DNA from: Acidithiobacillus montserratensis
Lineage (GTDB): Bacteria > Pseudomonadota > Gammaproteobacteria > Acidithiobacillales > Acidithiobacillaceae
Direction of reading: 5' to 3'
Length of the DNA stretch: 11,061 bases
Assembly: GCF_018853465.1 (NCBI RefSeq)
Contig: NZ_JABBOU010000106.1
Span: forward strand, 1-11,061
Shown here in pieces: positions 1,995 to 11,061 of the stretch; the first letter of the stretch is position 1, and the number at the start of each line of letters is the position of its first letter. The position numbers and the translations under genes were made by a program. Under the pieces are notes generated by a model that was not told the origin of the DNA, did no database searches, and was given only the letters and a program-made list of their open reading frames with translations.

Positions 1995-2032
1995 AAAAGA
2001 CCGCCGGCAGTTCGCGCTGGCGTTGTTTTCAG
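1991..2032. terminator. Bidirectional terminator hairpin between convergent genes
   Basis: CTGAAAA (1991-1997) pairs with TTTTCAG (2026-2032). Inside it, CGCCGGC (2002-2008) pairs with GCTGGCG (2016-2022) using one G-U pair and a 7-nt loop. The A-tract and T-tract arms give a U-rich 3' side in both directions. The stop codon of the plus gene (1992-1994) lies in the left arm and the stop of the minus gene (2029-2031) in the right arm, so one structure serves both. Confidence 0.6.
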
Positions 2033-2244
2033 TCTTTACGTTCGTCGAGTTGCGTCGCGCCCGTCCTGGTCATCACCGGGCGCGATAATGCGATTTCCAG
2101 CGCCGTTTCCAGGCGGATGACCCGTTCCGTCAGCGTTTCGATTTTACCCTGCTGGGATTTTACGGCTTCGGCCAGACGCTCCACCTTGTCATTCATCTTG
2201 ATGACCGTGGTCAAGGCCTCCCACATTTTGTCGGTGATAGCCAT
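2029..2244 (-). CDS. Small coiled-coil protein, partner of the upstream RHH-like protein
   Basis: A 71-residue protein that I do not recognise by family. Residues ~10-50 form a heptad-like helix (VIKMNDKVERLAEAV, then GKIETLTERVIRLETALEIA) that should be a coiled coil; the last ~20 residues are polar and probably disordered. There is no signal peptide or membrane segment, so it should be cytoplasmic. Its ATG (2244-2242) shares one base with the TGA stop of the upstream gene, and AAAGAG just upstream can act as Shine-Dalgarno, so the two are translationally coupled and probably made in a fixed ratio. Such an RHH-plus-coiled-coil pair could be an accessory of plasmid mobilisation or partition, or an uncharacterised toxin-antitoxin-like pair. 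None of these can be decided from the sequence. Confidence 0.7.
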   Translation of the reverse strand: MAITDKMWEALTTVIKMNDKVERLAEAVKSQQGKIETLTERVIRLETALEIALSRPVMTRTGATQLDERKD

Positions 2245-2522
2245 CACTCTTTCCGGCTGGATTCCAGACTGGCAATACGTTGGTTGGACGCCTCCACAAA
2301 AGATAAAGTGTCATCAATGACCCTGCTGGCCTGGGCGGTGGTCTTTAACATCTGGTCGATCAAGCCCTCCAGCATCTGCTCATCTTCGCCCGGGCGGAAG
2401 GACGAGGCGGCACGGCGCAAAAACTCCCCCATGGATATGTGCGCCTCCTGGGCCATTCTGGCAATCAGCGCCTTTTCCTGTACCGTCACCAGAACTGGAA
2501 TACGTTCACTATACGCTGCCAT
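2244..2522 (-). CDS. Ribbon-helix-helix-like (CopG/MobC-type) small protein
   Basis: A 92-residue protein. Residues 7-40 (RIPVLVTVQEKALIARMAQE, then a turn and SMGEFLRRAA) fit the strand-helix-turn-helix pattern of ribbon-helix-helix DNA binders and of MobC-type relaxosome accessory proteins. A second half (~48-85) is a long amphipathic helix (MLEGLIDQMLKTTAQASRVI and onward) likely to form a coiled coil. I start it at ATG 2522 because a near-perfect AAAGGAGG lies at 2528-2535, 5 nt upstream; a longer frame to 2552 has no such support. It is first in a two-gene unit with the coiled-coil protein. An inverted repeat between the promoter and the ribosome binding site suggests autoregulation (inference). 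It lies just left of the first attC site but I see no core site on its left, so it cannot be shown to be a cassette gene. Confidence 0.7.
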   Translation of the reverse strand: MAAYSERIPVLVTVQEKALIARMAQEAHISMGEFLRRAASSFRPGEDEQMLEGLIDQMLKTTAQASRVIDDTLSFVEASNQRIASLESSRKE

Positions 2523-2535
2523 TATTGCCTCCTTT

Positions 2536-2554
2536 ATGTGCATGTTCGGCACAT
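2536..2554. promoter_or_regulatory. Inverted repeat, candidate operator of the RHH/coiled-coil pair
   Basis: ATGTGC (2536-2541) and GCACAT (2549-2554) form a perfect 6-bp inverted repeat around a 7-bp spacer. It lies between the -10 box and the ribosome binding site of the RHH-like gene, about where the transcript would start. Small RHH proteins commonly bind such repeats in their own promoters; binding here is inference. Confidence 0.4.
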
Positions 2555-2558
2555 ATTG

Positions 2559-2586
2559 ATTGTAGATGGGGGCTGCGATAAATCAA
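2559..2586 (-). promoter_or_regulatory. Sigma70-type promoter of the RHH/coiled-coil pair
   Basis: On the minus strand TTGATT (2586-2581), a 16-bp spacer and TACAAT (2564-2559) make a good promoter, with predicted start near 2552 and a leader of about 30 nt containing the strong ribosome binding site. Confidence 0.55.
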
Positions 2587-2640
2587 GCTGGTGGGTAGAT
2601 CATGCCGGTAACGAGACAGTGCGGACTGTGTAGCGGCTTC

Positions 2641-2703
2641 GTCCAACCTCTCGTTCAACGCGGACGCGCCAAGATCGGCGCGCCCCTCCACTTTACGTTG
2701 GGA
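2641..2703 (+). repeat. attC-like site 1
   Basis: Left core GTCCAAC (2641-2647); a TTCAAC segment that resembles the usual L'' box; hairpin GGaCGCGCC / GGCGCGCC with the loop AAGATC and the extra A typical of this array; L' segment CACTTTAC; right core GTTGGGA (2697-2703, one base off GTTRRRY). Its right core opens the brnTA cassette. The cassette to its left has no identifiable left end. Confidence 0.75.
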
Positions 2704-2719
2704 CTTTCCATATCTCCGT

Positions 2720-2749
2720 ATGACTTTTTGTATGGGCTAGTGCTACTCT
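2720..2749 (+). promoter_or_regulatory. Candidate promoter of brnT, near-leaderless
   Basis: ATGACT (2720-2725), an 18-bp spacer and TACTCT (2744-2749) preceded by TGC, an extended -10 element. The -10 ends 6 bp before the ATG at 2756, so the transcript would start at or beside the start codon. No Shine-Dalgarno precedes that ATG, which agrees with a leaderless message. Confidence 0.35.
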
Positions 2750-2755
2750 GTGTCG

Positions 2756-3046
2756 ATGGCAAAAACTCGCTTTCATTGGGATCCCGACAAGGACGCAGAG
2801 AATCAGGGAAAGCATGGAGTCTCTTTCTCACGCGCCCAATACGCCTTTGCGGATCCACAACGCGTGATTGCCAAGGACGAGACACACAGCCAGACCGAAG
2901 AGCGGTTCTATTGCTTTGGCGAAGTTGATGGTGGTGTGATCACAGTGCGGTTCACTTACCGTGCTTCGGTTATTCGAATCATCGGCGCCGGTTATTGGCG
3001 CAAAGGAAAGGCCATCTATGAGCGCGAAAATCAAATACACCGATGA
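2756..3046 (+). CDS. brnT: BrnT family toxin (type II TA, predicted ribonuclease)
   Basis: A 96-residue protein matching the BrnT/DUF497 pattern from end to end: FHWDPDKDAENQGKHGVSF at residues 6-24, AFADP at about 30-34, the acidic EER at 48-50, the strand VITVRFTY at 61-68 and VIRIIGAGYWRKGKAIYE at 72-89. BrnT toxins have a RelE-like fold, cleave RNA and arrest growth, and are neutralised by BrnA. Length is normal, so it looks intact. I prefer ATG 2756; an in-frame GTG at 2750 would add two residues and also lacks a Shine-Dalgarno. The downstream antitoxin overlaps it by 29 nt. The cassette carries a possible promoter of its own directly upstream, as TA cassettes usually do. Confidence 0.85.
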   Translation: MAKTRFHWDPDKDAENQGKHGVSFSRAQYAFADPQRVIAKDETHSQTEERFYCFGEVDGGVITVRFTYRASVIRIIGAGYWRKGKAIYERENQIHR

Positions 3047-3299
3047 ACCCCTTGGCAAGGTTCAGGTGGTTCCCGACTTCCTCCCTTCGCCGGCCGAATT
3101 GGCATTTCGTGAAGAAAGTGTGAAGGTAACCTTAGCTCTGAGCAAGAAGAGTATTGAGTTCTTCAAATTGGAGGCTACAAAGAATCACACTCAGTACCAA
3201 CGCATGATTCGGCGGCTCATCGACGCATATGTGGATGCCCAAGCCCCAACCCGGCAGTCCACACGGACGCTGCGCGATAAAGCCGCGCAGCGCCGGTGA
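3018..3299 (+). CDS. brnA: BrnA/CopG-type RHH antitoxin
   Basis: A 93-residue partner of BrnT. Residues ~1-33 form a variable N-terminus that would contact the toxin; residues 34-73 (SVKVTLALSKKSIEFFKLEA, then YQRMIRRLIDAYV) form a ribbon-helix-helix domain for binding its own operator. The ATG at 3018 lies inside brnT, preceded by AAAGGAAAGG, so the antitoxin has a far better ribosome binding site than the toxin. The attC site begins at 3244, so residues from about 76 on (TRQSTRTLRDKAAQRR) are encoded by the recombination site itself and form a strongly basic tail; the stop codon TGA (3297-3299) lies within the attC right arm. The exact subfamily (BrnA proper or another CopG antitoxin) is uncertain; the pairing is clear. 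Confidence 0.8.
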   Translation: MSAKIKYTDEPLGKVQVVPDFLPSPAELAFREESVKVTLALSKKSIEFFKLEATKNHTQYQRMIRRLIDAYVDAQAPTRQSTRTLRDKAAQRR

Positions 3300-3313
3300 C
3301 TTCTACGTTGGAC
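3244..3313 (+). repeat. attC-like site 2
   Basis: Left core CCCCAAC (3244-3250), nearly complementary to the opening core of the same cassette. The hairpin is the best in the array: CGCTGCGCG (3268-3276) pairs perfectly with CGCGCAGCG (3284-3292) around a 7-nt loop, extended by CACGG/CC-GTG with an unpaired A3267. The right core GTTGGAC (3307-3313) fits GTTRRRY and opens the yefM-yoeB cassette. The site overlaps the end of brnA. Confidence 0.75.
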
Positions 3314-3321
3314 GTCTCATG

Positions 3322-3576
3322 TCAGTAGTGGAACCGAAGTTGCGCGATTTCTAGCGCATCATTGACGACGCGATACACCATGCGATGCTCATCCGTAATT
3401 CGGCGCGACCAAAAGCCCGACAGCGCGTGCTTCAGTGGCTCTGGCTTACCCACACCACTGAATGGTTCGCGTTGTATCTCCCGAATCAGCTTGTTGATCC
3501 GCTCCACCATTCGCTTGTCTTGCTTCTGCCAATATAGGTAGTCTTCCCATGCCTCGTCTGCAAAAATCAACTTCAC
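3322..3576 (-). CDS. yoeB: YoeB/Txe family mRNA interferase toxin
   Basis: An 84-residue protein, exactly the length of E. coli YoeB, ending in the typical RFHY. The residues known as catalytic in E. coli YoeB fall at the same positions: Glu46, Arg65, His83 and Tyr84. The flanking motifs (PLKHALSGFWSRRITDEHRM and VYRV) are typical. YoeB binds the ribosome A site and cuts mRNA at the codon being read; the active site here looks complete, so the toxin should be functional. The start overlaps the yefM stop by 4 nt, so translation is coupled. The gene lies opposite to the direction of the cassette array, ending 9 bp from the attC core on its left. Confidence 0.93.
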   Translation of the reverse strand: MKLIFADEAWEDYLYWQKQDKRMVERINKLIREIQREPFSGVGKPEPLKHALSGFWSRRITDEHRMVYRVVNDALEIAQLRFHY

Positions 3577-3824
3577 TTTGCCAGTTTCCGCTCGACACCC
3601 TTGTCTGCGTTCAGTTGTGCAACGGCGGAGAGAAGACGCTTGGCGTTGGCAGGTGTGCGCAACAGATAGGCTGTTTCCTCAAGCGCTTTGAAATCTTCAA
3701 GCGAAAGCATCACAACGGATTGTTCGCCGTTGCGCGTGATAATCAAAGCTTCATGATCATTACAAACCCTATCCATTGCGCTGGCGAGATTTGCACGAAC
3801 AGTGGTATAGGTAATTGCGTCCAT
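3573..3824 (-). CDS. yefM: YefM/Phd family antitoxin
   Basis: An 83-residue protein. The N-terminal Phd/YefM DNA-binding and dimerisation domain spans residues ~1-55 (MDAITYTTVRANLASAMDRV, ALIITRNGEQSVVMLSLEDF); the C-terminal part (KALEETAYLLRTPANAKRLL and following) is the toxin-neutralising region. It represses its own operon together with YoeB. The start ATG at 3824 has AGGAG (3831-3835) 6 nt upstream. Immediately upstream lie TGTACA-type repeats that fit a YefM operator. Length is normal and nothing suggests damage. The TA operon has its own promoter and is inverted in its cassette, so it does not depend on read-through from a cassette promoter. Confidence 0.93.
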   Translation of the reverse strand: MDAITYTTVRANLASAMDRVCNDHEALIITRNGEQSVVMLSLEDFKALEETAYLLRTPANAKRLLSAVAQLNADKGVERKLAK

Positions 3825-3839
3825 GGGTGGCTCCTGAAA

Positions 3840-3860
3840 TGTACGTCTTACTGTACAGTA
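3840..3860. promoter_or_regulatory. YefM-YoeB operator, paired TGTACA-type repeats
   Basis: TACTGTACAGTA (3849-3860) is a perfect 12-bp palindrome centred on TGTACA. A second, imperfect core TGTACG lies at 3840-3845, centre-to-centre distance 12 bp. The E. coli yefM-yoeB operator is known to be built of adjacent palindromes with TGTACA cores, so both sequence and arrangement fit. The main palindrome overlaps the putative -10 box. Confidence 0.65.
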
Positions 3861-3879
3861 TTAGGCGCTAGGTGTCCAA
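3850..3879 (-). promoter_or_regulatory. Candidate yefM promoter using the attC left core as -35
   Basis: On the minus strand TTGGAC (3879-3874) and TACAGT (3855-3850) are separated by 18 bp. The -35 is the reverse complement of the attC left core and the -10 lies within the operator palindrome. The match to consensus is only moderate; the position relative to the operator and to the AGGAG of yefM is reasonable. Confidence 0.35.
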
Positions 3880-3935
3880 CCCGTCGTTCTAGGGGACGCG
3901 CCGCGATGAAGTTGCGTCGCGCCCCCTGAGTTTCC
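3874..3935 (+). repeat. attC-like site 3, right end degenerate
   Basis: Left core GTCCAAC (3874-3880) is exactly complementary to the opening core of the yefM-yoeB cassette. Hairpin GGGGaCGCG (3892-3900) / CGCGCCCC (3918-3925) again has the unpaired A (3896). After it comes CTGAGTTTCC, but no GTTRRRY follows at the expected place; the nearest one, GTTAGAC at 3973-3979, is ~48 bp beyond the stem. The right part is therefore mutated or rearranged. Confidence 0.65.
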
Positions 3936-4023
3936 ATCATGATTGTAGGATAGTGTCTCGTACTGTATGTCTGTTAGACTCGTACTAAATAAAGGTAGAT
4001 CGGTGTAACACTGATTGCCCATT

Positions 4024-4052
4024 TTGCAAACTTCGCCTCGGATGACTCTAAA
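4024..4052 (+). promoter_or_regulatory. Candidate promoter of the methyltransferase remnant
   Basis: TTGCAA (4024-4029), a 17-bp spacer and TCTAAA (4047-4052). The start point would lie within a few bases of the ATG at 4062, another near-leaderless arrangement. The boxes match consensus at about four of six positions each. Confidence 0.3.
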
Positions 4053-4061
4053 AATCCCGTT

Positions 4062-4205
4062 ATGTCCAAACTAGATAACATCCCTGAACCCAGCGAGACT
4101 TCTTCTCTTCGTGCCGTCGCTTTCTTCTGCGGTGCTGGAGGCATGAGCTTTGGGCTGTCACAAGTTGGGATCCAATTTCTGGGAGCCCCTTACCTTCAAC
4201 GTTAG
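4062..4205 (+). pseudogene. Cytosine-5 DNA methyltransferase, N-terminal remnant
   Basis: The frame from ATG 4062 encodes 47 residues. After a polar leader, residues 18-41 read as motif I of C5-cytosine methyltransferases: AVAFFCGAGGMSFGLSQVG, the S-adenosylmethionine-binding FCGAGG loop followed by the usual helix. Full-length enzymes run to roughly 300-450 residues with the catalytic Pro-Cys motif IV and target-recognition region; all of that is absent. The frame ends at TAG 4203-4205, which is part of the attC core GTTAGGA. The gene was thus deleted from just after motif I into the right end of the attC site that once followed it. It cannot methylate DNA. Whether a restriction enzyme once accompanied it cannot be seen. 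The motif is short but very characteristic. Confidence 0.75.
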
Positions 4206-4207
4206 GA
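4194..4207 (+). repeat. attC remnant 4 (right half only)
   Basis: CTTCAAC followed by the core GTTAGGA (4201-4207) is the L'-R' end of an attC; its left core and hairpin are missing, removed with most of the methyltransferase gene. The core opens the next cassette and is exactly complementary to that cassette's right-end core TCCTAAC at 4611. Confidence 0.65.
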
Positions 4208-4214
4208 GTTACCA

Positions 4215-4607
4215 GTGGAATCAGATCGTTATAAACGTGGTTGGGAAAAACTCAAGGAGATCGACGGTCACGCCGGCGAGAAGGTGATTGATGCATTGAA
4301 GGACATTGCGCCGGATCTCGCCCGCTACACCATTGAGTTTCCTTTTGGTGATGTTTACTCCCGTGGAGTTCTTTCGCTAAAGGAGCGGGAAATTGCCACC
4401 GTTGCTGCTTTGGCCGCCTTGGGTAATGCACAACCCCAACTCAAAGTACATATTCATGGAGCACTCAACGTCGGTTGCACAAGGCAAGAGATCGTCGAAA
4501 TCATGATTCAAATGGCTGTGTACGCCGGGTTTCCTGCAGCGCTCAATGGTATTTTTGCAGCCAAGGAAGTCTTCGCCAAGCGTAATCATTTGGGGCAGGT
4601 GAATTGA
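4215..4607 (+). CDS. Carboxymuconolactone decarboxylase (CMD/PcaC-like) family protein
   Basis: A 130-residue all-helical protein. The CMD signature is at residues 76-109: [20 protein letters not shown], then [15 protein letters not shown]. Before it, [17 protein letters not shown] (54-70) is also typical. It has one cysteine (Cys88) and no CXXC pair, so it is not a classic AhpD-type peroxidase reductase; it resembles the PcaC branch, but a true role in protocatechuate breakdown is unlikely because no pathway genes are near. Many family members of unknown substrate occur on mobile DNA. The start is GTG 4215: an AGGAG at 4204-4208, 6 nt upstream, fits well and comes from the attC core GTTAGGA plus the next G. 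It is the only non-TA intact gene in the array. Confidence 0.85.
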
Positions 4608-4610
4608 CCC

Positions 4611-4674
4611 TCCTAACTCTGCATTCGAGCGGGACGCGCCAAAAGCCGCGCGCTCCTCAATTTGAACGTTGCAC
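4611..4674 (+). repeat. attC-like site 5
   Basis: Left core TCCTAAC (4611-4617); L'' region CATTCGAGCGG; imperfect GC-rich stem around the loop CCAAAAGC; L' CTCAATTTGAAC; right core GTTGCAC (4668-4674, one base off GTTRRRY). It shares long stretches with site 6, including the words ACGCGCCAAAAGC and CTCCTCAAT, so the two descend from the same attC type. It begins 3 bp after the CMD-family stop codon. Confidence 0.75.
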
Positions 4675-4675
4675 G

Positions 4676-4696
4676 ATCTAACCTTATTCGTTAGGC
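4676..4696 (+). repeat. Collapsed second attC-like core pair
   Basis: ATCTAAC (4676-4682, fits RYYYAAC) is followed after only 7 bp by GTTAGGC (4690-4696, fits GTTRRRY). CTAAC and GTTAG are inverted repeats. The layout equals an attC whose hairpin was lost, or a very small cassette remnant between 4668 and 4690. GTTAGGC matches the right-end core of the following cassette (GTCTAAC at 5300) at 6 of 7 positions, better than GTTGCAC does. Confidence 0.45.
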
Positions 4697-4710
4697 ATCT
4701 CACCAGAAAG

Positions 4711-4739
4711 GTGACAATAGGCACACATCAAGATAGACT
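4711..4739 (+). promoter_or_regulatory. Candidate promoter of the second BrnT-like toxin, leaderless
   Basis: GTGACA (4711-4716), a 17-bp spacer and TAGACT (4734-4739). The predicted start point coincides with the A of the ATG at 4746. Only GGGG, one base from the ATG, could serve as a ribosome binding site, which is too close to work normally. Confidence 0.4.
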
Positions 4740-4745
4740 TGGGGC

Positions 4746-5039
4746 ATGAAACCATTTCGCTGGAACCACGAAAAGAATGAGGCGCTGAAAATTGAGCGCG
4801 ACATTTCATTCGAGATTGTAGCGCTTGCTATTGAGGCTGATGGCCTGCTGGATGAATTGCGCCACCCGAACACGGAAAAATATCCGAATCAATCCGTTTT
4901 CGTCGTAGCATTTGATGGTTATGCTTACTTGGTGCCTTACGTTGAAGAACCGGATTACTATTTTTTGAAGACAGTAATCCCCAGCAGAAAGGCTACCAGA
5001 GACTATTTGCTGAGGGGTAATCCAGATGAAAAAGCTTGA
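4746..5039 (+). CDS. BrnT-like toxin of a second TA pair
   Basis: A 97-residue protein. Its start, KPFRWNHEKNEALKIERDIS, matches the BrnT opening pattern (FxWxxxKNxxxKxERxISF); the middle has LLDELRHPNTEKYPNQ and the second half VFVVAFDGYAYLVPYVEE and YYFLKTVIPSRKATRDYLL. It belongs to the BrnT-related branch usually found next to a CopG-type antitoxin and differs from the BrnT of the first cassette, so this is an independent module and not a duplication. The stop overlaps the antitoxin by 14 nt, a coupled operon. By analogy it should be an RNA-cleaving, growth-inhibiting toxin; catalytic residues cannot be named with confidence for this branch. Confidence 0.8.
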   Translation: MKPFRWNHEKNEALKIERDISFEIVALAIEADGLLDELRHPNTEKYPNQSVFVVAFDGYAYLVPYVEEPDYYFLKTVIPSRKATRDYLLRGNPDEKA

Positions 5040-5352
5040 TGCGTTTGAAGAAGACATTTTGGCAGCCTATGAAAGAGGGGAGTTCAAGTCCACATCCCCT
5101 TCAAAAGCAGAGTTGGCAAAATTCAAAGCGGCTGCTACAGCCACCTTTCTGAAAGAAAAGCGGGTTAACATTCGCCTTTCCGCGCCAGACTTGATGGATA
5201 TTCAAGCACGTGCGCTTGAAGAAGGTATGCCATATCAGACGTTAATCGCCAGCGTCCTTCACAAGTTTGTGTCGGGGCGCCTTGTAGAATCTTTGCCCAG
5301 TCTAACTTCTCATTCAAGCGGAACGCGCCAAAAGCGGCGCACTCCTCAATAG
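5026..5352 (+). CDS. CopG/RHH antitoxin of the second BrnT-like pair, attC-encoded tail
   Basis: A 108-residue protein. Residues 1-44 (AFEEDILAAYERGEF, KAELAKFKAAATATFLKEK) form the likely toxin-binding part; residues 46-86 (RVNIRLSAPDLMDIQARALE, then PYQTLIASVLHKFVSGRL) are a ribbon-helix-helix domain typical of CopG antitoxins paired with BrnT-like toxins. The ATG at 5026 has GAGGGG upstream. From residue ~92 on (SLTSHSSGTRQKRRTPQ) the protein is encoded by attC site 6, and the stop TAG (5350-5352) is created where that attC breaks off, so the present C-terminus may not be the ancestral one. The core antitoxin domain is complete. Confidence 0.82.
   Translation: MKKLDAFEEDILAAYERGEFKSTSPSKAELAKFKAAATATFLKEKRVNIRLSAPDLMDIQARALEEGMPYQTLIASVLHKFVSGRLVESLPSLTSHSSGTRQKRRTPQ
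5300..5349 (+). repeat. attC-like site 6, truncated; right end of the array
   Basis: Left core GTCTAAC (5300-5306), L'' segment CATTCAAGCGG, stem and loop with ACGCGCCAAAAGC, then CTCCTCAAT. At this point site 5 continues with TTGAAC and the right core, whereas here the sequence switches to AGCTCC and no GTTRRRY follows. The site has lost its right half, marking the breakpoint between array and flank. Confidence 0.7.
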
Positions 5353-5517
5353 CTCCGCGCCTGAATTTCACGAGCTCGGCGATCCACACTGGTTACGCAA
5401 CGGCTGCGTCTTCTTAAGTCGACACCCCGCAAACGCATTGCCTCCCGGCGAGGGTGCCGCACAACTCGGGATCCCTTTGGACCACCCGCAAGCTGCGCTT
5501 GAGGTCCATAACACCAC
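5353..5517. other. Gene-free stretch right of the array; possible remnant reading frame
   Basis: No complete gene is visible. One plus-strand frame stays open from before 5350 to TAA 5555-5557 and reads plausibly in part (HELGDPHWLRNGCVFLSRHP), but it has no start codon and runs through the terminator, so it could be the tail of a gene cut off at the array junction or chance. A hairpin occurs at 5479-5507 (GGACC/GGTCC outside, CAAGC/GCTTG inside, loop TGC). I recognise no RNA gene. Confidence 0.35.
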
Positions 5518-5551
5518 CCCAGAAATCACAATGATGTCTGGGTTTTTGTTT
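5518..5551 (+). terminator. Intrinsic terminator on the array side of ssb
   Basis: CCCAGA (5518-5523) pairs with TCTGGG (5537-5542); inside, ATCA pairs with TGAT around the loop CAA, separated by one A/G mismatch; the run TTTTTGTTT follows. It is oriented to stop plus-strand transcription leaving the cassette array before it runs antisense into ssb. Its arms may also end ssb transcription, though the U-run is on the plus side only. Confidence 0.75.
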
Positions 5552-5572
5552 ACATAATTTTATAGGTACAGA

Positions 5573-6046
5573 CTAAAACGGAATATCATCATCAAAATCT
5601 TCCATGGGCGGGGGAGCATCCTGCTTGCGTCCTGCTCCGGCTGCTGCGGGGGCAGCTGAGGAGCGTCCACCGCCATGATCTTCTTCATCAAAACTGGCGG
5701 CACCGCCACTACCGCCGCGTGATCCTACCAACTGCAGGCGGTCGCCGATGATTTCCGTGGTGTAGCGCTCCTGACCGTCCTTGTCCGTCCATTTGCGGGT
5801 CTGCAGGCGGCCTTCCACGTAGGCCATGCTGCCCTTGCGCAGATACTCCCCGGCGATTTCAGCGGTACGGTTGAAAAACACTACACGATGCCATTCGGTG
5901 CGCTCCTGCTTGTTGCCGTCCCGATCCTTGTAGGTTTCAGAGGTAGCCAAACTGAAATTGGCGATAGCCGCCCCGCTGGGCTGATAGCGCATCTCCGGGT
6001 CCCGGCCCAGATGTCCTAATAATATGACCTTGTTCACTCCCGCCAT
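5573..6046 (-). CDS. ssb: Single-stranded DNA-binding protein
   Basis: A 157-residue SSB, which coats single-stranded DNA during replication, recombination and repair and recruits partner proteins. The OB-fold domain covers residues ~1-110, beginning [20 protein letters not shown], with [20 protein letters not shown] and [18 protein letters not shown] as typical motifs. A Gly/Ala-rich flexible linker follows, and the acidic C-terminal tip DFDDDIPF, the docking site for partner proteins, is intact. Start ATG 6046 has AAGGAG (6055-6060) 8 nt upstream. It is divergent from uvrA, the same arrangement as in E. coli, with a 16-bp palindrome between them. Length and motifs are normal for a chromosomal SSB. 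Confidence 0.97.
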
Positions 6047-6068
6047 TGTCAGATCTCCTTATGTACAG

Positions 6069-6084
6069 GGGGACGGCTGTCCCC
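6069..6084. promoter_or_regulatory. Perfect inverted repeat between ssb and uvrA, candidate operator
   Basis: GGGGAC (6069-6074), a 4-bp spacer GGCT and GTCCCC (6079-6084). It lies 22 bp upstream of the ssb start and just upstream of the putative uvrA -10. The half-site/N4/half-site form resembles GAAC-N4-GTTC-type LexA boxes but not the CTGT-N8-ACAG box of E. coli. It could also be a hairpin in the ssb leader. Confidence 0.4.
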
Positions 6085-6092
6085 GAAAGCTC

Positions 6093-6098
6093 TATACT
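6093..6098 (+). promoter_or_regulatory. Candidate -10 box for uvrA
   Basis: TATACT matches the -10 consensus at five of six positions; no convincing -35 lies 16-18 bp upstream, where the palindrome region is found. The reverse strand of nearly the same bases (TAGTAT) could serve ssb. Start would be near 6105 with a leader of about 45 nt. Confidence 0.3.
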
Positions 6099-6149
6099 AA
6101 CTCATTCGCAGAAAATCTCATTCCCAAGGCAAAAAAAGGCTGTGGCTAG

Positions 6150-8951
6150 ATGGAACACATCCATATCCGGGGCGCACGCACCCATAACCTCAAAAACATC
6201 TCATTGACTCTGCCCCGGGACCGCCTCATTGTCATCACCGGCTTGTCGGGTTCAGGCAAATCCTCCCTGGCTTTTGATACCCTCTACGCCGAAGGCCAGC
6301 GTCGCTATGTGGAGAGCCTTTCGGCTTATGCCCGACAGTTTCTGTCGCTGATGGGCAAGCCCGATGTGGATGCCATTGAAGGACTGTCTCCCGCCATTTC
6401 CATCGAACAGAAATCCACTTCCCATAATCCCCGCTCGACGGTCGGGACGGTGACCGAAATTCATGATTATCTGCGTCTGCTCTATGCCCGCACCGGCACG
6501 CCCTGGTGCTGCGGCGCACCCATCCAGAGCCAGACCATCAGCCAGATGGTGGATCAGTTACTGGCCCTGCCCGAAGGCGAAAAGCTGATGATTCTTGCCC
6601 CTCTGGTGCGTGACCGCAAAGGCAGCCATGAAGAAGTGATCAGCACCCTGCGCGCCCGGGGCCTGATCCGCGCCCGGGTGAATGGCGAGATGCTTGAACT
6701 GGACGAGATACCCAGCCTGGACAAAAAACGCAAGCACCGCATTGAGGCCGTTATTGATCGGCTGGTACTGCGCCCAGACAGCGGACCACGCTTGGCCGAA
6801 TCCCTGGAAACTGCCCTCAGTCTGGCCGATGACCAGGCCATTGCCGTATTGATGGGGCCGCAACATCAGGAAGAACGGTTGTTTTCGGCGCACCATGCCT
6901 GTCCCAGCTGCGGCCGCTCCTTTCCGGCCCTGGAGCCCCGGCTGTTTTCCTTCAACAATCCGGCGGGAGCCTGCCCGCGTTGTGATGGTCTGGGGGAAAT
7001 CACTTTTTTTGATCCCGATCTGGTGGTGCCTGACCCGCGACTGAGTCTGAGTAGCGGGGCCATTGCCGCCTGGACCAAGCGTCACAAGGAACACTATGCC
7101 CCGCTCCTGAAGGCACTGGCCGCCCATTTTCACTTTTCTCTGGAGACTGCCTGGGAGGATCTCCCTTTTGAGATGCGCGAACAGATATTGCACGGCTCTG
7201 ACGAACGCATATCCGTGCAGCAGGGCTCCCGCAGTCATCAGATGCATTTCGAGGGGGTCATCCCCGGCCTGGAGCGCCGCCTGCGCGAATCCCAATCCAA
7301 TCTGGCCCGGGAAGAAATCATGCGCTATATGGGTCGCTTGCGTTGCCCCACCTGCCAGGGCAGCCGCCTGCGTGAAGAGGCGCGCATGGTCAAAGTCGGG
7401 CCGCTGGCTATTCAGGAAGTCTCGGCCCTGCCCATTCGCGAGTCACTGCAACATTTTGAGCAGCTCCAGCTGGAGGGTCAGGAAGCCGTCATCGCCGAAA
7501 GAATCCTCAAGGAAATCGGCAGTCGTCTGAAATTTCTGGTGGACGTGGGGCTGGCCTATCTGAGCCTGGATCGTTCGGCAGAAACCCTCTCGGGCGGAGA
7601 AGCCCAGCGCATTCGCCTGGCCTCCCAGATTGGGGCCGGACTGGTGGGGGTCATGTATGTGCTGGATGAACCATCCATCGGCCTGCACCAGCGCGATAAT
7701 GACCGGCTGATCGGCACCCTCAAACACCTGCGCGATCTCGGCAATACGGTCATTGTGGTGGAACATGACGAAGACGCCATTCGCGCTGCGGATCATGTGG
7801 TGGATATGGGACCCGGGGCCGGCACCCACGGCGGTTCGGTCATCGCTCAGGGTACCCCAGAGGATATCCGCGCCAATCCCGATTCCCTCACTGGCCGTTA
7901 TCTGACCGGCGACCTGTGTATTGCCGTTCCTGAACGGCGGCGCCATGACCAGCAACGCTGGCTGGAAGTCATCGGCGCCACCGGCAACAATTTGCAGGCG
8001 GTCCATGCCCGGATTCCTATCGGCCTGTTTACCTGCATCACCGGGGTCAGTGGTTCGGGCAAATCCACCCTCATCAACGACACCCTGTATCCGGCCTGCG
8101 CGCGGGCACTGATGGGCAGCACCCAGAGCCCAGCTCCCCATCAGCAAATTCTGGGGCTGGAAGCACTGGACAAGGTGATTGCCATCGACCAGAGCCCCAT
8201 CGGTCGCACACCGCGCAGCAACCCGGCCACCTACACCGGACTGTTCACGCCGATTCGGGAACTGTTTGCGGCCACCAGTGAAGCCCGGGCCAGAGGCTAC
8301 AATCCCGGTCGCTTCAGTTTCAACGTCAAGGGCGGGCGCTGCGAGGCCTGCGAAGGCGATGGCGTTATCCGCGTGGAAATGCATTTTCTGCCCGACATTT
8401 ACGTCCCCTGCGACGTCTGCGCCGGCAAACGCTACAAGCGGGAAACCCTGGATGTGCATTACAAGGGCAAAAACATTCACGAAATTCTGGAGCTGACCGT
8501 GGAAGATGCCCGGGAATTTTTTGCACCGGTTCCGGCCATTGCCCGCAAACTGCAGACTCTTTTGGACGTGGGACTGGGCTACCTGCGCCTCGGCCAGTCC
8601 GCCACCACTCTGTCGGGAGGGGAGGCCCAGAGGGTGAAGCTGTCCCGGGAATTATCCCGGCGCGACACCGGACGGACCCTGTATATTCTCGATGAGCCGA
8701 CCACCGGCCTGCATTTTCATGATATTGCCCTGCTCCTGGTGGTGCTGCAAAAACTCGCCGATGCCGGCAATACCATTGTCGTCATCGAACATAATCTCGA
8801 TGTCATCAAGACGGCCGACTGGATTATCGACCTCGGTCCGGAAGGGGGATCTGGGGGCGGCCAGATTATTGCCACGGGCAGCCCGGATGAAGTCGCCCAC
8901 CATCCGGCTTCTCACACCGGTCACTACCTGGCGCGACATTTGGCCCGATAA
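6150..8951 (+). CDS. uvrA: Excinuclease ABC subunit A
   Basis: A 933-residue UvrA, the damage-sensing ATPase of nucleotide excision repair, which loads UvrB onto DNA lesions. Both ABC modules are complete: first Walker [10 protein letters not shown] at 31-39, signature LSGGEAQ at 480-486 and [11 protein letters not shown] after it; second Walker A GVSGSGKS at 632-639, signature LSGGEAQ at 821-827 and [10 protein letters not shown]. Zinc-binding cysteine quartets are present at 251, 254, 275, 278 and at 731, 734, 754, 757; a further CPTC pair lies at 399-402. The N-terminus ([18 protein letters not shown]) is typical, supporting ATG 6150 although the Shine-Dalgarno is weak (AAAGG, 10 nt away). 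Length is close to the usual ~940. It is divergent from ssb and followed after 41 bp by a co-directional gene. Confidence 0.98.
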
Positions 8952-8992
8952 ATTGCACAATATGTCGGTAAATCTGACCTGGAGCCGTGAAT

Positions 8993-9547
8993 ATGTCCGT
9001 TCTCCCCGAACGTCGTGAACAAATCCGTAGCGCCCACGCCGCCCTCATTCTGCAAGTGGTGGCCGCCTGTCAGAACGCCCAGTTACGCCCGCCGGTGGAA
9101 GATCATCTGCGCGTCGCCGCTGCCAATGGCTGGGGTGATCTGGTGACGGTACTGCAGCAGATCCTGGGCGGCAAACGCGACTTGGGCCTGTTGCAGGGGC
9201 TGGATGAGGAAGACAGCATCATTGTCGAATCCATTCTCATGGGCCTGCAAAATCCCGAAACCCTGCCTCAGCCTACCGGTCAAGCGGACCCGGGCATGGC
9301 CGCGCCCGGGCTGGCCAGCGTCATCCTCGCCGCCCGCCGGGGCGACCCCCAGGCCGTGGCCTGGCTCGGGCAGATGGCCAGCCAGATGCAAAAGGCGGGG
9401 GGTGACATGGCGCGCATGGGCGCCGCCCTCGGTCCCTTGTCCAGAGGCCTTGACGATCGCCGCAAACTGGAAAAAGGCATGGGCCCTTTGGGGCGTAGTC
9501 TGCTGCAAGGCGTGCTGGATGAACTCGCCAAGGCCGAGCTGCATTAA
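8993..9547 (+). CDS. Unrecognised 184-aa soluble protein downstream of uvrA
   Basis: I do not recognise this protein. It has no signal peptide or membrane segment. Residues 1-90 are helical (HAALILQVVAACQNAQLRPP, DLVTVLQQILGGKRD, DEEDSIIVESILMGLQNPET), residues ~91-105 a Pro/Gly linker, and 106-180 a second helical part rich in Ala, Gly and Met (QMASQMQKAGGDMARMGAAL) ending in GVLDELAKAELH. Start ATG 8993 is chosen because GGAG (8981-8984) lies 8 nt upstream; the in-frame GTG at 8987 would be too close to it. It follows uvrA by 41 bp and precedes cnoX by 86 bp, so it may share the uvrA transcript. GC and codon use look like the neighbouring housekeeping genes, so it is likely a resident gene. 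Confidence 0.8.
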   Translation: MSVLPERREQIRSAHAALILQVVAACQNAQLRPPVEDHLRVAAANGWGDLVTVLQQILGGKRDLGLLQGLDEEDSIIVESILMGLQNPETLPQPTGQADPGMAAPGLASVILAARRGDPQAVAWLGQMASQMQKAGGDMARMGAALGPLSRGLDDRRKLEKGMGPLGRSLLQGVLDELAKAELH

Positions 9548-9568
9548 TCTCAAATACGTCAGGATAAC

Positions 9569-9597
9569 TTGAAATAGTCTTTTCCTGCCCTTATTTC
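9569..9597 (+). promoter_or_regulatory. Candidate promoter of cnoX
   Basis: TTGAAA (9569-9574), a 17-bp spacer and TATTTC (9592-9597). The -35 is good and the -10 weak. It lies in the AT-rich gap before cnoX and would give a leader of about 30 nt with AGGAG at 9623-9627. Confidence 0.35.
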
Positions 9598-9633
9598 CCA
9601 AGCTAACGTCATTTTATTTTTCAGGAGTATTGC

Positions 9634-10503
9634 ATGGCCACTGGTGAACATATCCTCGAAGTCAACTTAGGCAATTTTCAGGAAGCCGTCATTGCGCTTT
9701 CCCAAAAGACCCTGGTCCTCGTGGATTTCTGGGCGCCCTGGTGCGGGCCCTGTCGCGCCCTCGGTCCCATCCTCGAAAAACTGGCGGAAGAAATGCAAGG
9801 GGCTTTTGTTCTGGCTAAAATCAATTCCGATGAAAATCAGGAGCTTTCCCAAAAATATCAAGTGCGGGGGATTCCTGCCGTCAAGGCCTTCAAAAACGGT
9901 CAGGTCGTGGATGAGTTCACCGGCGCGCTCCCGGAATCCGCCATTCGTCAGTTTCTGGAAAAGCACCTGCCCAAACCCGGCGATGACCTGCGCGCTGCAG
10001 CCATGGATGCCATGGCCCAGGGCAAAACTGCCGAAGCCCAGGCATTGCTCGAAGAAGCCCTCCAGCAGAATCCCCGGAATGACCAGGCACGACTGGCGCT
10101 GGCCCATCTGGCCATCCAGCAGGGCCAGCACGCTGAGGCGCAGGCGCAGATTGATGCCATGTCGCCTCTGTTTCAGATGGAAACCGAGGTGGAGGGTCTG
10201 AAGGCGTTGCTGGAGTTTACCGCAGAAGCCCGCAAAGCGCCGCCCATGCCGACCCTGGAAGCAACCATTGCCCAGGAAAAAGGCGACGCCCGCGCCTTGG
10301 CCATGTATCAACGCGCTCTGGTCCTGCTCCTGCAGGGCCAGGAAACAGCCGCCTTGGATCAGCTGATCGAAATGGTGGAACGCCATAAAAATTACGAGGA
10401 TGGCCTCGCCCGCAAAACGATCCTGAAAATTTTTGCCCTGCACGGTAATCAGGGGCCGATGGTGGAACAATATCGGACCAAACTGTCCCGCGCCTTGTAT
10501 TAA
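9634..10503 (+). CDS. cnoX: CnoX/YbbN-type thioredoxin-TPR protein (chaperedoxin)
   Basis: A 289-residue protein. Residues ~1-112 are a thioredoxin domain with the active site WCGPC at 36-40 (Cys37, Cys40) and the cis-proline in RGIPAV at Pro81. Residues ~115-289 form TPR-like helical repeats (AMAQGKTAEAQALLEEALQQ, ARLALAHLAIQQGQHAEAQA, and later RALVLLLQGQETAALDQLIE). This architecture and length match CnoX/YbbN, which protects substrates of GroEL from over-oxidation and holds unfolded proteins in the cytoplasm. E. coli CnoX lacks the full CXXC and is redox-inactive; here CGPC is complete, so thiol-disulfide exchange is likely, as reported for some other bacterial members. ATG 9634 has AGGAG 6 nt upstream. 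It lies before a periplasmic protease gene, a second protein-quality-control function. Confidence 0.92.
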   Translation: MATGEHILEVNLGNFQEAVIALSQKTLVLVDFWAPWCGPCRALGPILEKLAEEMQGAFVLAKINSDENQELSQKYQVRGIPAVKAFKNGQVVDEFTGALPESAIRQFLEKHLPKPGDDLRAAAMDAMAQGKTAEAQALLEEALQQNPRNDQARLALAHLAIQQGQHAEAQAQIDAMSPLFQMETEVEGLKALLEFTAEARKAPPMPTLEATIAQEKGDARALAMYQRALVLLLQGQETAALDQLIEMVERHKNYEDGLARKTILKIFALHGNQGPMVEQYRTKLSRALY

Positions 10504-10525
10504 GTGCTATGGTAGCTCACATACA

Positions 10526-10556
10526 GGAACCAAACCTTTCAATTTAGTGTCCTAGA
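10526..10556 (+). promoter_or_regulatory. Candidate envelope-stress (sigmaE-type) promoter of the protease gene
   Basis: GGAACCA (10526-10532) and TCCTAGA (10550-10556) are separated by 17 bp, similar to the GGAACTT...TCTGA arrangement of sigmaE promoters such as that of E. coli degP. The GGAAC part is exact and the -10 part loose. It precedes the start codon by 26 bp. Assignment is inference from motif and context. Confidence 0.35.
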
Positions 10557-10582
10557 GAATCAAAACTCCAAAGGAGAGTCCT

Positions 10583-11061
10583 ATGGCGAATAGTCGCCCC
10601 AACAGCCTGTTAAAACGCCCGAAACTACTCATCACCGCCATCGTTGCTGCCTGCTTTGGTTTTAGCCTCGGTGCCACGGAATGGGCCCAGGCGGATGCCA
10701 CCGCGCCCGCTTTATCCATCAATACCAATACGGCGCCGCAGCAGGCCCTGGTGGCTCTCCCGGATTTCACCCCCATTATTGACCGCTATGGTCCGGCGGT
10801 AGTCAACATCAGCAGCACCACCAACAAGGTCATCCATCAGCAGACCAACCCGTTTCCGCCCAATTCACCTTTTTATCAATTCTTTCAGCATTTCGGGGCT
10901 CCCGGACAAGGGGGCGGACCCCAGCATCAGCAACACGAAAAAATTCAGTCCCTGGGCTCGGGCTTCATCATCAGTCCCGATGGCTACATTGTGACGGCGG
11001 GGCATGTGGTGCGTGGGGCCAATCATATTGTTGTCACTCTGACCAACCACCATGCCTATCC
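10583..11061 (+). CDS. Periplasmic Do/HtrA-family serine protease (DegP/DegQ/MucD-like), N-terminal part
   Basis: The frame opens at ATG 10583 behind AAAGGAGAG and runs off the window, giving 159 residues. Residues 1-38 look like a signal peptide: basic KRPK, hydrophobic LLITAIVAACFGFSLG, probable cleavage after AQA. The mature part starts with the family's FTPIIDRYGPAVVNISST, then a Gln/Gly/Pro-rich loop (~85-118, the LA-loop region), then the trypsin-like domain SLGSGFIISPDGYIVTAG followed by the catalytic His141 (HVV). The Asp and Ser of the triad and the PDZ domains lie beyond the edge. These proteases degrade or refold damaged periplasmic proteins. Which subfamily cannot be decided without the C-terminus. 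It follows cnoX by 79 bp and has its own possible stress promoter. Confidence 0.92.
   Translation, partial: MANSRPNSLLKRPKLLITAIVAACFGFSLGATEWAQADATAPALSINTNTAPQQALVALPDFTPIIDRYGPAVVNISSTTNKVIHQQTNPFPPNSPFYQFFQHFGAPGQGGGPQHQQHEKIQSLGSGFIISPDGYIVTAGHVVRGANHIVVTLTNHHAY

Follow-up and report, generated by a model that had tools for sequence, protein, structure and literature searches.

A small attC cassette array without an adjacent integrase beside ssb and uvrA in Acidithiobacillus montserratensis

What occupies the DNA between a Pmp3-like gene and the ssb-uvrA pair in Acidithiobacillus montserratensis, what put it there, and does it still change? The window analysed here (the whole stretch of 11,061 bases) is an entire contig, NZ_JABBOU010000106.1 (C9), of a 2.83 Mb draft genome in 178 contigs. 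A reading made from its letters alone, hereafter the sequence-only reading, had seen in it an integron-like cassette array with no integrase gene, dominated by toxin-antitoxin (TA) modules. We find that the locus as a whole is best explained, with a probability that we put at about 0.9, as a cluster of attC sites lacking an adjacent integron integrase (CALIN), situated between the Pmp3-like region and ssb-uvrA, that an integrase would have built, whose cassettes have been gained or exchanged, and that is now probably decaying. It has four attC sites found by covariance models, no integron integrase beside it, and content that differs between relatives at attC boundaries; the adjacent intI and attI of a complete integron were not found at the array.

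The attC sites and the units between them

The predicted attC sites were confirmed as real by covariance modelling. A first heuristic search was noisy and was used for choosing the sites from which two models were made: R1 from 10 sites, three of them in the window and one in the sister species A. marinus (genome G016), and R2 from 11 sites of other genomes, with none from the window or from A. marinus. The A. marinus site L028:9017 (L028 being the A. marinus locus) was present in alignment A3 and was removed from A4 and R2 for independence, and L051:6956 was removed from the model alignment as it failed to align. Both models find four sites, all on the + strand and at the places where the sequence-only reading had seen attC-like sites in one orientation. 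The last of the four is absent from both training sets. Three further attC pieces are remnants. The array reads as follows, with R2 scores and E-values from the own genome (G000):

2641..2703, + strand: attC site 1, left end of the array; R'' GTCCAAC, R' GTTGGGA; 67.3 bits with R1, 38.3 bits with R2 (E 6.8e-7); A. marinus copy at L028:9017-9079
2750..3046, + strand: BrnT-family toxin, cassette 1; PF04365, E 2.9e-23, above cut-off
3018..3299, + strand: probable BrnA-type antitoxin, cassette 1; overlaps the end of brnT and ends inside attC site 2; no Pfam family over cut-off
3244..3313, + strand: attC site 2; 58.7 bits with R1, 50.2 bits with R2 (E 1.9e-10)
3322..3576, - strand: YoeB toxin, cassette 2, reversed in the array; PF06769, E 3.1e-40, and TIGR02116 above cut-off
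3573..3824, - strand: YefM/Phd antitoxin, cassette 2; PF02604, E 5.8e-24, above cut-off
3874..3930, + strand: attC site 3, a degenerate remnant with left core and hairpin and no right core; R1 9.5 bits, E 1.1, not significant
4062..4205, + strand: DNA methyltransferase remnant, the first ~40 codons, ended by an attC right half; PADLOC MTase_II E 4.6e-5 over residues 14-42, PF00145 E 0.27
4185..4207, + strand: attC right half, a remnant, R' GTTAGGA; 21 of 23 bases match the R2-supported attC L130:11393
4215..4607, + strand: carboxymuconolactone decarboxylase (CMD) family protein, cassette 4; PF02627, E 9.8e-23, above cut-off
4611..4674, + strand: attC site 4; 68.8 bits with R1, 61.5 bits with R2 (E 8.5e-14)
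4671..4696, + strand: right half of a further attC-like site, a remnant, R' GTTAGGC, fused to attC site 4; R1 9.7 bits, E 0.88
4746..5039, + strand: BrnT-like toxin, cassette 5; PF04365, E 0.0075, below cut-off
5026..5352, + strand: CopG-type antitoxin, cassette 5, its end running through attC site 5; PF12441, E 1.3e-5, 26.3 bits against a cut-off of 28
5300..5358, + strand: attC site 5, right end of the array, right core lost; 39.2 bits with R1, 37.8 bits with R2 (E 9.1e-7)

In 107,468 bases of control DNA from the own genome and the genus (some stretches overlapping), the single R2 match at E<=1 was the orthologous copy of attC site 1 in A. marinus. Over the own genome R1 returned the four window sites and one insignificant match (E 0.37), and R2 returned the four and one more, C144:20745-20852 (28.4 bits). 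Sites with an R2 E-value of 0.001 or better occur in 16 of 17 genomes of the genus, and the counts per genome are lower bounds because 150 candidates were scored in each. A strict attC pattern run over the whole genome was uninformative: it matched nowhere in the own genome and 11 times in the reversed control (8 and 3). The extra site on C144 forms a weaker second attC pair with another at about 21658-21700 of that contig (L131:1746-1853 and 2659-2701, L131 being a stretch of C144; 28.4 and 20.9 bits); the pair adjoins a ribonucleotide reductase small-chain gene (PF00268), and the intervening 263-residue open reading frame (ORF) matches no Pfam family.

Covariation in the hairpin points the same way. 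Across 42 matches from outside the R2 training set, the score was 0.392 as compared with 0.127 in shuffles, which reached it in 0 of 500 cases, and 134 cells show changes on both sides, where shuffles average 42; the score is biased towards the model, to which the alignment had been fitted, and the set admits matches as weak as E 0.5. In the same 42 sites the 22-pair attC structure is formed in 87.4% of cells, with outer cores paired and a stem that carries extrahelical bases on one arm, the unpaired bases of the left arm being visible in the sequence. At gathering thresholds Rfam gave 0 matches in the window, a result with no bearing on attC either way. Of the remnants, site 3 matches an R2-supported attC of G013 (L128:3353) at 42 of 57 bases, and the right half at 4671-4696 is identical over 26 of 26 bases to L051:6956, which is attC-like by the heuristic only and absent from the R1 matches.

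In a cassette array each cassette begins with the right core of the preceding attC, and this start is expected to pair with the R'' at the cassette's own end. Among the four cassettes that have both ends, the cognate combination gave 26 of 28 matches and was the single best of the 24 permutations.

Three of the five units are TA pairs, as the sequence-only reading had it, with family evidence that is weak for BrnA, for the BrnT-like protein and for CopG; the remaining two are the CMD-family enzyme and the methyltransferase stub. Both partners match known families over cut-off, as type II TA pairs would have it, in YoeB/YefM only. BrnT is over its cut-off and its partner has no Pfam name, so that we call the partner BrnA from its position and size, and the BrnT-like and CopG proteins are both below their Pfam cut-offs. 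The BrnT-like toxin has 3606 homologs, and among the matches listed a source names a toxin for 5 of 120.

Cassette content behind the shared first site

The comparison with A. marinus locates the change. Positions 1-2699 align to the A. marinus locus at 93% and 5509-11061 at 94%, and 2700-5508 are unaligned. The alignment of the two genomes breaks at the GTT of the right core of attC site 1, and the portion of the array common to both sisters is this first site only. The GTT of the right core is the crossover point of integron recombination. In A. marinus the counterpart of 2700-5508 is ~0.7 kb behind the same first attC and holds one HigB/HigA pair (PF05015, E 7.1e-15; HTH_3, E 2.9e-9); the start of this cassette pairs at 6 of 7 positions with R''-like bases behind the cassette and at 4 of 7 with the shared site (7-mers entered manually). 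A shared first attC followed by different DNA from the GTT onward therefore shows that cassettes were gained or exchanged here since the sisters' common ancestor, the enzymatic step being what we infer. The sequence-only reading had called the array sedentary, which holds for its position, common to two sister species, and fails for its content, completely different in A. marinus. Covariance-model matches at the sites and variation of the segment among relatives were the two points on which that reading could have fallen, and both came out in its favour.

In the genus an ssb match was found in 16 of 17 genomes, and with the best locus taken for each, an R2 site lies within 2 kb of ssb only in the own genome and in A. 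marinus; in G001 and G010 the nearest such site is about 13.6 kb from ssb. In fifteen of these loci the 700 bases downstream of ssb were readable, and by eye six have the Pmp3-like gene near, with a short and array-free interval, and seven have other DNA. The Pmp3-ssb interval, 1995-5508 in the window, contains in other species a Fic protein in L030 (Pfam) and L032 (by eye), a MazE/PemK pair in L029 (Pfam) and L031 (by eye), and a transposase-like gene in G004 (by eye). Since the inserts differ by species (CALIN, Fic, MazE/PemK, transposase, almost nothing), the interval takes up DNA in several lineages.

Relatives of four array units recur at other places in the genus. Searched with 2704-5299, 14 of the 17 genomes matched, the own genome included, some of them by attC sequence alone, and no match was found in A. 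marinus, G001 or G005. Relatives of YefM/YoeB (75-82%) are found in G012, G015, G008, G007, G013, G011, G009 and G004. The match in G012 and G015 begins near the end of brnT and crosses the brnA part with the order kept, at 95-96% over 2984-3115 and 78-79% beyond. The CMD cassette has relatives in G010 and G003, BrnT/BrnA a partial one in G013 (71%), and BrnT-like/CopG has relatives at 66-67% in G013, G006 and G002. R2 sites lie on the stretches that bear these relatives in G012, G015, G013, G007 and G010, and weak ones in G004 and G003. Of the 147 records matched in a plasmid search, 77 have 90-95% identity and not one spans 80% of the array; among the matches listed, 20 of the 147, YefM/YoeB or CMD genes are seen, or the record is unannotated.

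The prevalence of TA pairs may be a trait of this small array in particular. In a sample of 36 proteins extracted from six loci, with cassettes omitted where gaps exceeded 1.5 kb, one larger array of the genus (L130, 11 cassettes) has a TA family in 1 of the 10 proteins scanned of its 13 (the other three being a 401-residue protein and two second ORFs).

To the left of the array, the DUF445 protein (PF04286) at 392-1720 is 97% identical to that of A. marinus SH and 82-84% to those of four other Acidithiobacillus loci found, which places the genome in Acidithiobacillus near A. marinus. A Pmp3-like gene (PF01679) stands to the left of the array, and family models bear out the ssb and uvrA that the sequence-only reading had placed beside it. 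A small NikA-like protein at 2244-2552 on the - strand (PF21983, 27.9 bits against a cut-off of 27, E 2.7e-6) adjoins the array and lies in DNA common to A. marinus. Scans for promoters (3 against a shuffle mean of 3.2) and terminators (3 against 3.3) gave no excess over shuffles. Two features follow the array on its right:

5359..5508, no strand: 150-base stretch of unassigned origin that separates the array from the conserved flank with ssb; outside the A. marinus-aligned flanks, with an open frame without Pfam family
5573..6046, - strand: ssb, right flank; PF00436 and TIGR00621 above cut-off; flank 94% identical to A. marinus

An integron integrase beside enolase

No integrase family match is found on the contig of the window, as the sequence-only reading had it, and for the genome that statement fails: matches to TIGR02249 and PF00589 lie on other contigs. 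A search of the whole genome for IntI, together with further attC sites, had been proposed; it brought out the C144 site given above and an integron integrase (TIGR02249) at C171:3-794, with 343.8 bits over the cut-off, and a second piece at C146:41313-41579, with 147.5 bits and, as a piece, below it. The two pieces are at contig ends that share an identical stretch of 116 bases, and the gene adjoins enolase (TIGR01060). Both match PDB 2a3v, 'site-specific recombinase IntI4' (E 3.8e-64 and 1.2e-31), which we take to be the structure of Vibrio cholerae IntIA.

Both sister integrases are probably inactive, judging by their sequences. At the H-x-x-R motif (motif II), the own integrase has an arginine where 2a3v and the 18 remaining rows of the alignment (from 17 loci, L055 and L057 being overlapping stretches) all have a histidine, and the A. 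marinus ortholog, also beside enolase, retains about the first 70 and the last 66 residues around an internal deletion, with a stop at the joint. It is the replaced histidine in the one and the deletion in the other that make us regard both as probably inactive. The own gene furthermore has ATA at the aligned ATG of A. marinus, and as TTG codons follow the ATA an alternative start is possible. Among the other integron integrases of the genus, family and order, those of L050, L051, L052 and L055 are broken by stops, frame changes or deletions, and G006, G007, G010, G011 and G015 have full-length matches without stops.

Just outside the integrase gene the own genome and A. marinus diverge at ACGTT, which would fit an attI site with different cassettes behind it. 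Behind the integrase (L026:904-3143, L026 lying on contig C171) lies an AIPR-family gene in overlapping frames, 1204-1659 and 1617-2888, the family match being to the second; it ends at a possible degenerate attC.

Origin of the array, rival explanations and known systems

We suggest that an integron integrase acting on folded attC sites built the array, and that this enzyme was likely the enolase integrase or its ancestor, which would have acted in trans. Cassettes were gained or exchanged behind the first attC after the sisters had split. The array is probably frozen now, because the integrase gene looks impaired in both sisters, and decay is suggested by the stub of the methyltransferase gene, by the pair of attC right halves and by the truncation of the last site. 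Stabilisation of cassette arrays through post-segregational killing by TA pairs is described for Vibrio (PMC11551772), and by analogy the TA pairs would retain the array here.

Several points weigh against this account. Contig C171, which carries the integrase, has no significant attC, the best being the possible degenerate site at L026:2859-2914 (9.6 bits, E 0.27), and the integrases beside the arrays from which the models were made are mostly about 51-57% identical to the enolase integrase over the N-terminal piece. R1 and R2 are home-made models of 10 and 11 sites, different from IntegronFinder's attC model, and the start given to cassette 5 in the pairing test, the second right half, was the analyst's choice. 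There is furthermore no R2 attC match near the YefM/YoeB relatives of G011 (L132) and G009 (L134), and that of G004 is weak; because some relatives have no attC nearby, the YefM/YoeB module also moves or stays by other means.

One rival, which we hold to be very unlikely, is that the Pmp3-ssb interval is a hotspot which independent TA and Fic modules enter by ordinary recombination, the attC sites being mere passengers. The same interval in other species does hold Fic or MazE/PemK (L029-L032) with no attC match there, and G004 the transposase-like gene seen by eye. However, each unit of the window is terminated by an attC, whole or fragmentary, the break with A. marinus falls at the crossover point of the shared attC, and 6 of the 15 ssb loci have, by eye, nothing more than a short interval. 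Still less credible is a complete integron that the assembly has broken, with the array as one of its ends. Drafts are said by the authors of IntegronFinder 2.0 to inflate CALIN counts (PMC9024848), and this genome is such a draft, in many contigs, but a single contig contains the whole array, with synteny to A. marinus extending over 2.7 kb of one flank and 5.6 kb of the other. The integrase stands beside enolase, which lies 46 kb from ssb in G011 and about 1.2 Mb in G004, both single-contig genomes (a third, G014, was excluded as its close enolase match is partial).

Within the CALIN explanation we consider it possible, though rather doubtful, that integrase function was lost separately in the two sisters after their cassettes had diverged at this one site, distant from the integrase, and that mainly TA pairs remain there (three of five units and one of one) as the last cassettes kept. 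The five further R2 attC sites that A. marinus has elsewhere weigh against such a course. If it were true, the locus would be a natural experiment on which cassettes are kept once the integrase is dead. In any case it offers a CALIN that is linked to a candidate integrase at another place in its genome, a replacement of cassettes behind a single attC shown between sister species, and a small system for probing whether decaying arrays are held together by TA cassettes. Cassettes are reportedly inserted into chromosomes at attG sites as well (Loot and colleagues, 2024), a route by which a CALIN might arise outside any integron; in this array no original left junction is recognised.

The array is a CALIN of known kind and not new in principle. 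CALINs in Acidithiobacillia and TA cassettes are already published, and integron integrases of A. ferrooxidans have been listed from annotation (PMC6736930); in the portions of the open literature consulted we found no description of this array or of ssb-linked CALINs in the genus. The CALINs of Xanthomonas (PMC12444791) are likewise apart from the integrase locus, which is at ilvD there, and occupy the same chromosomal spot in related species; unlike them, the sisters here have only the first attC in common and both integrase copies look impaired. The superintegron of Vibrio cholerae (PMC11551772, PMC11023631) likewise has TA pairs inside an attC cassette array, of 179 cassettes as compared with the five units here. 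From known CALINs this one differs in no point of principle, being small, rich in TA pairs and accompanied by attC remnants.

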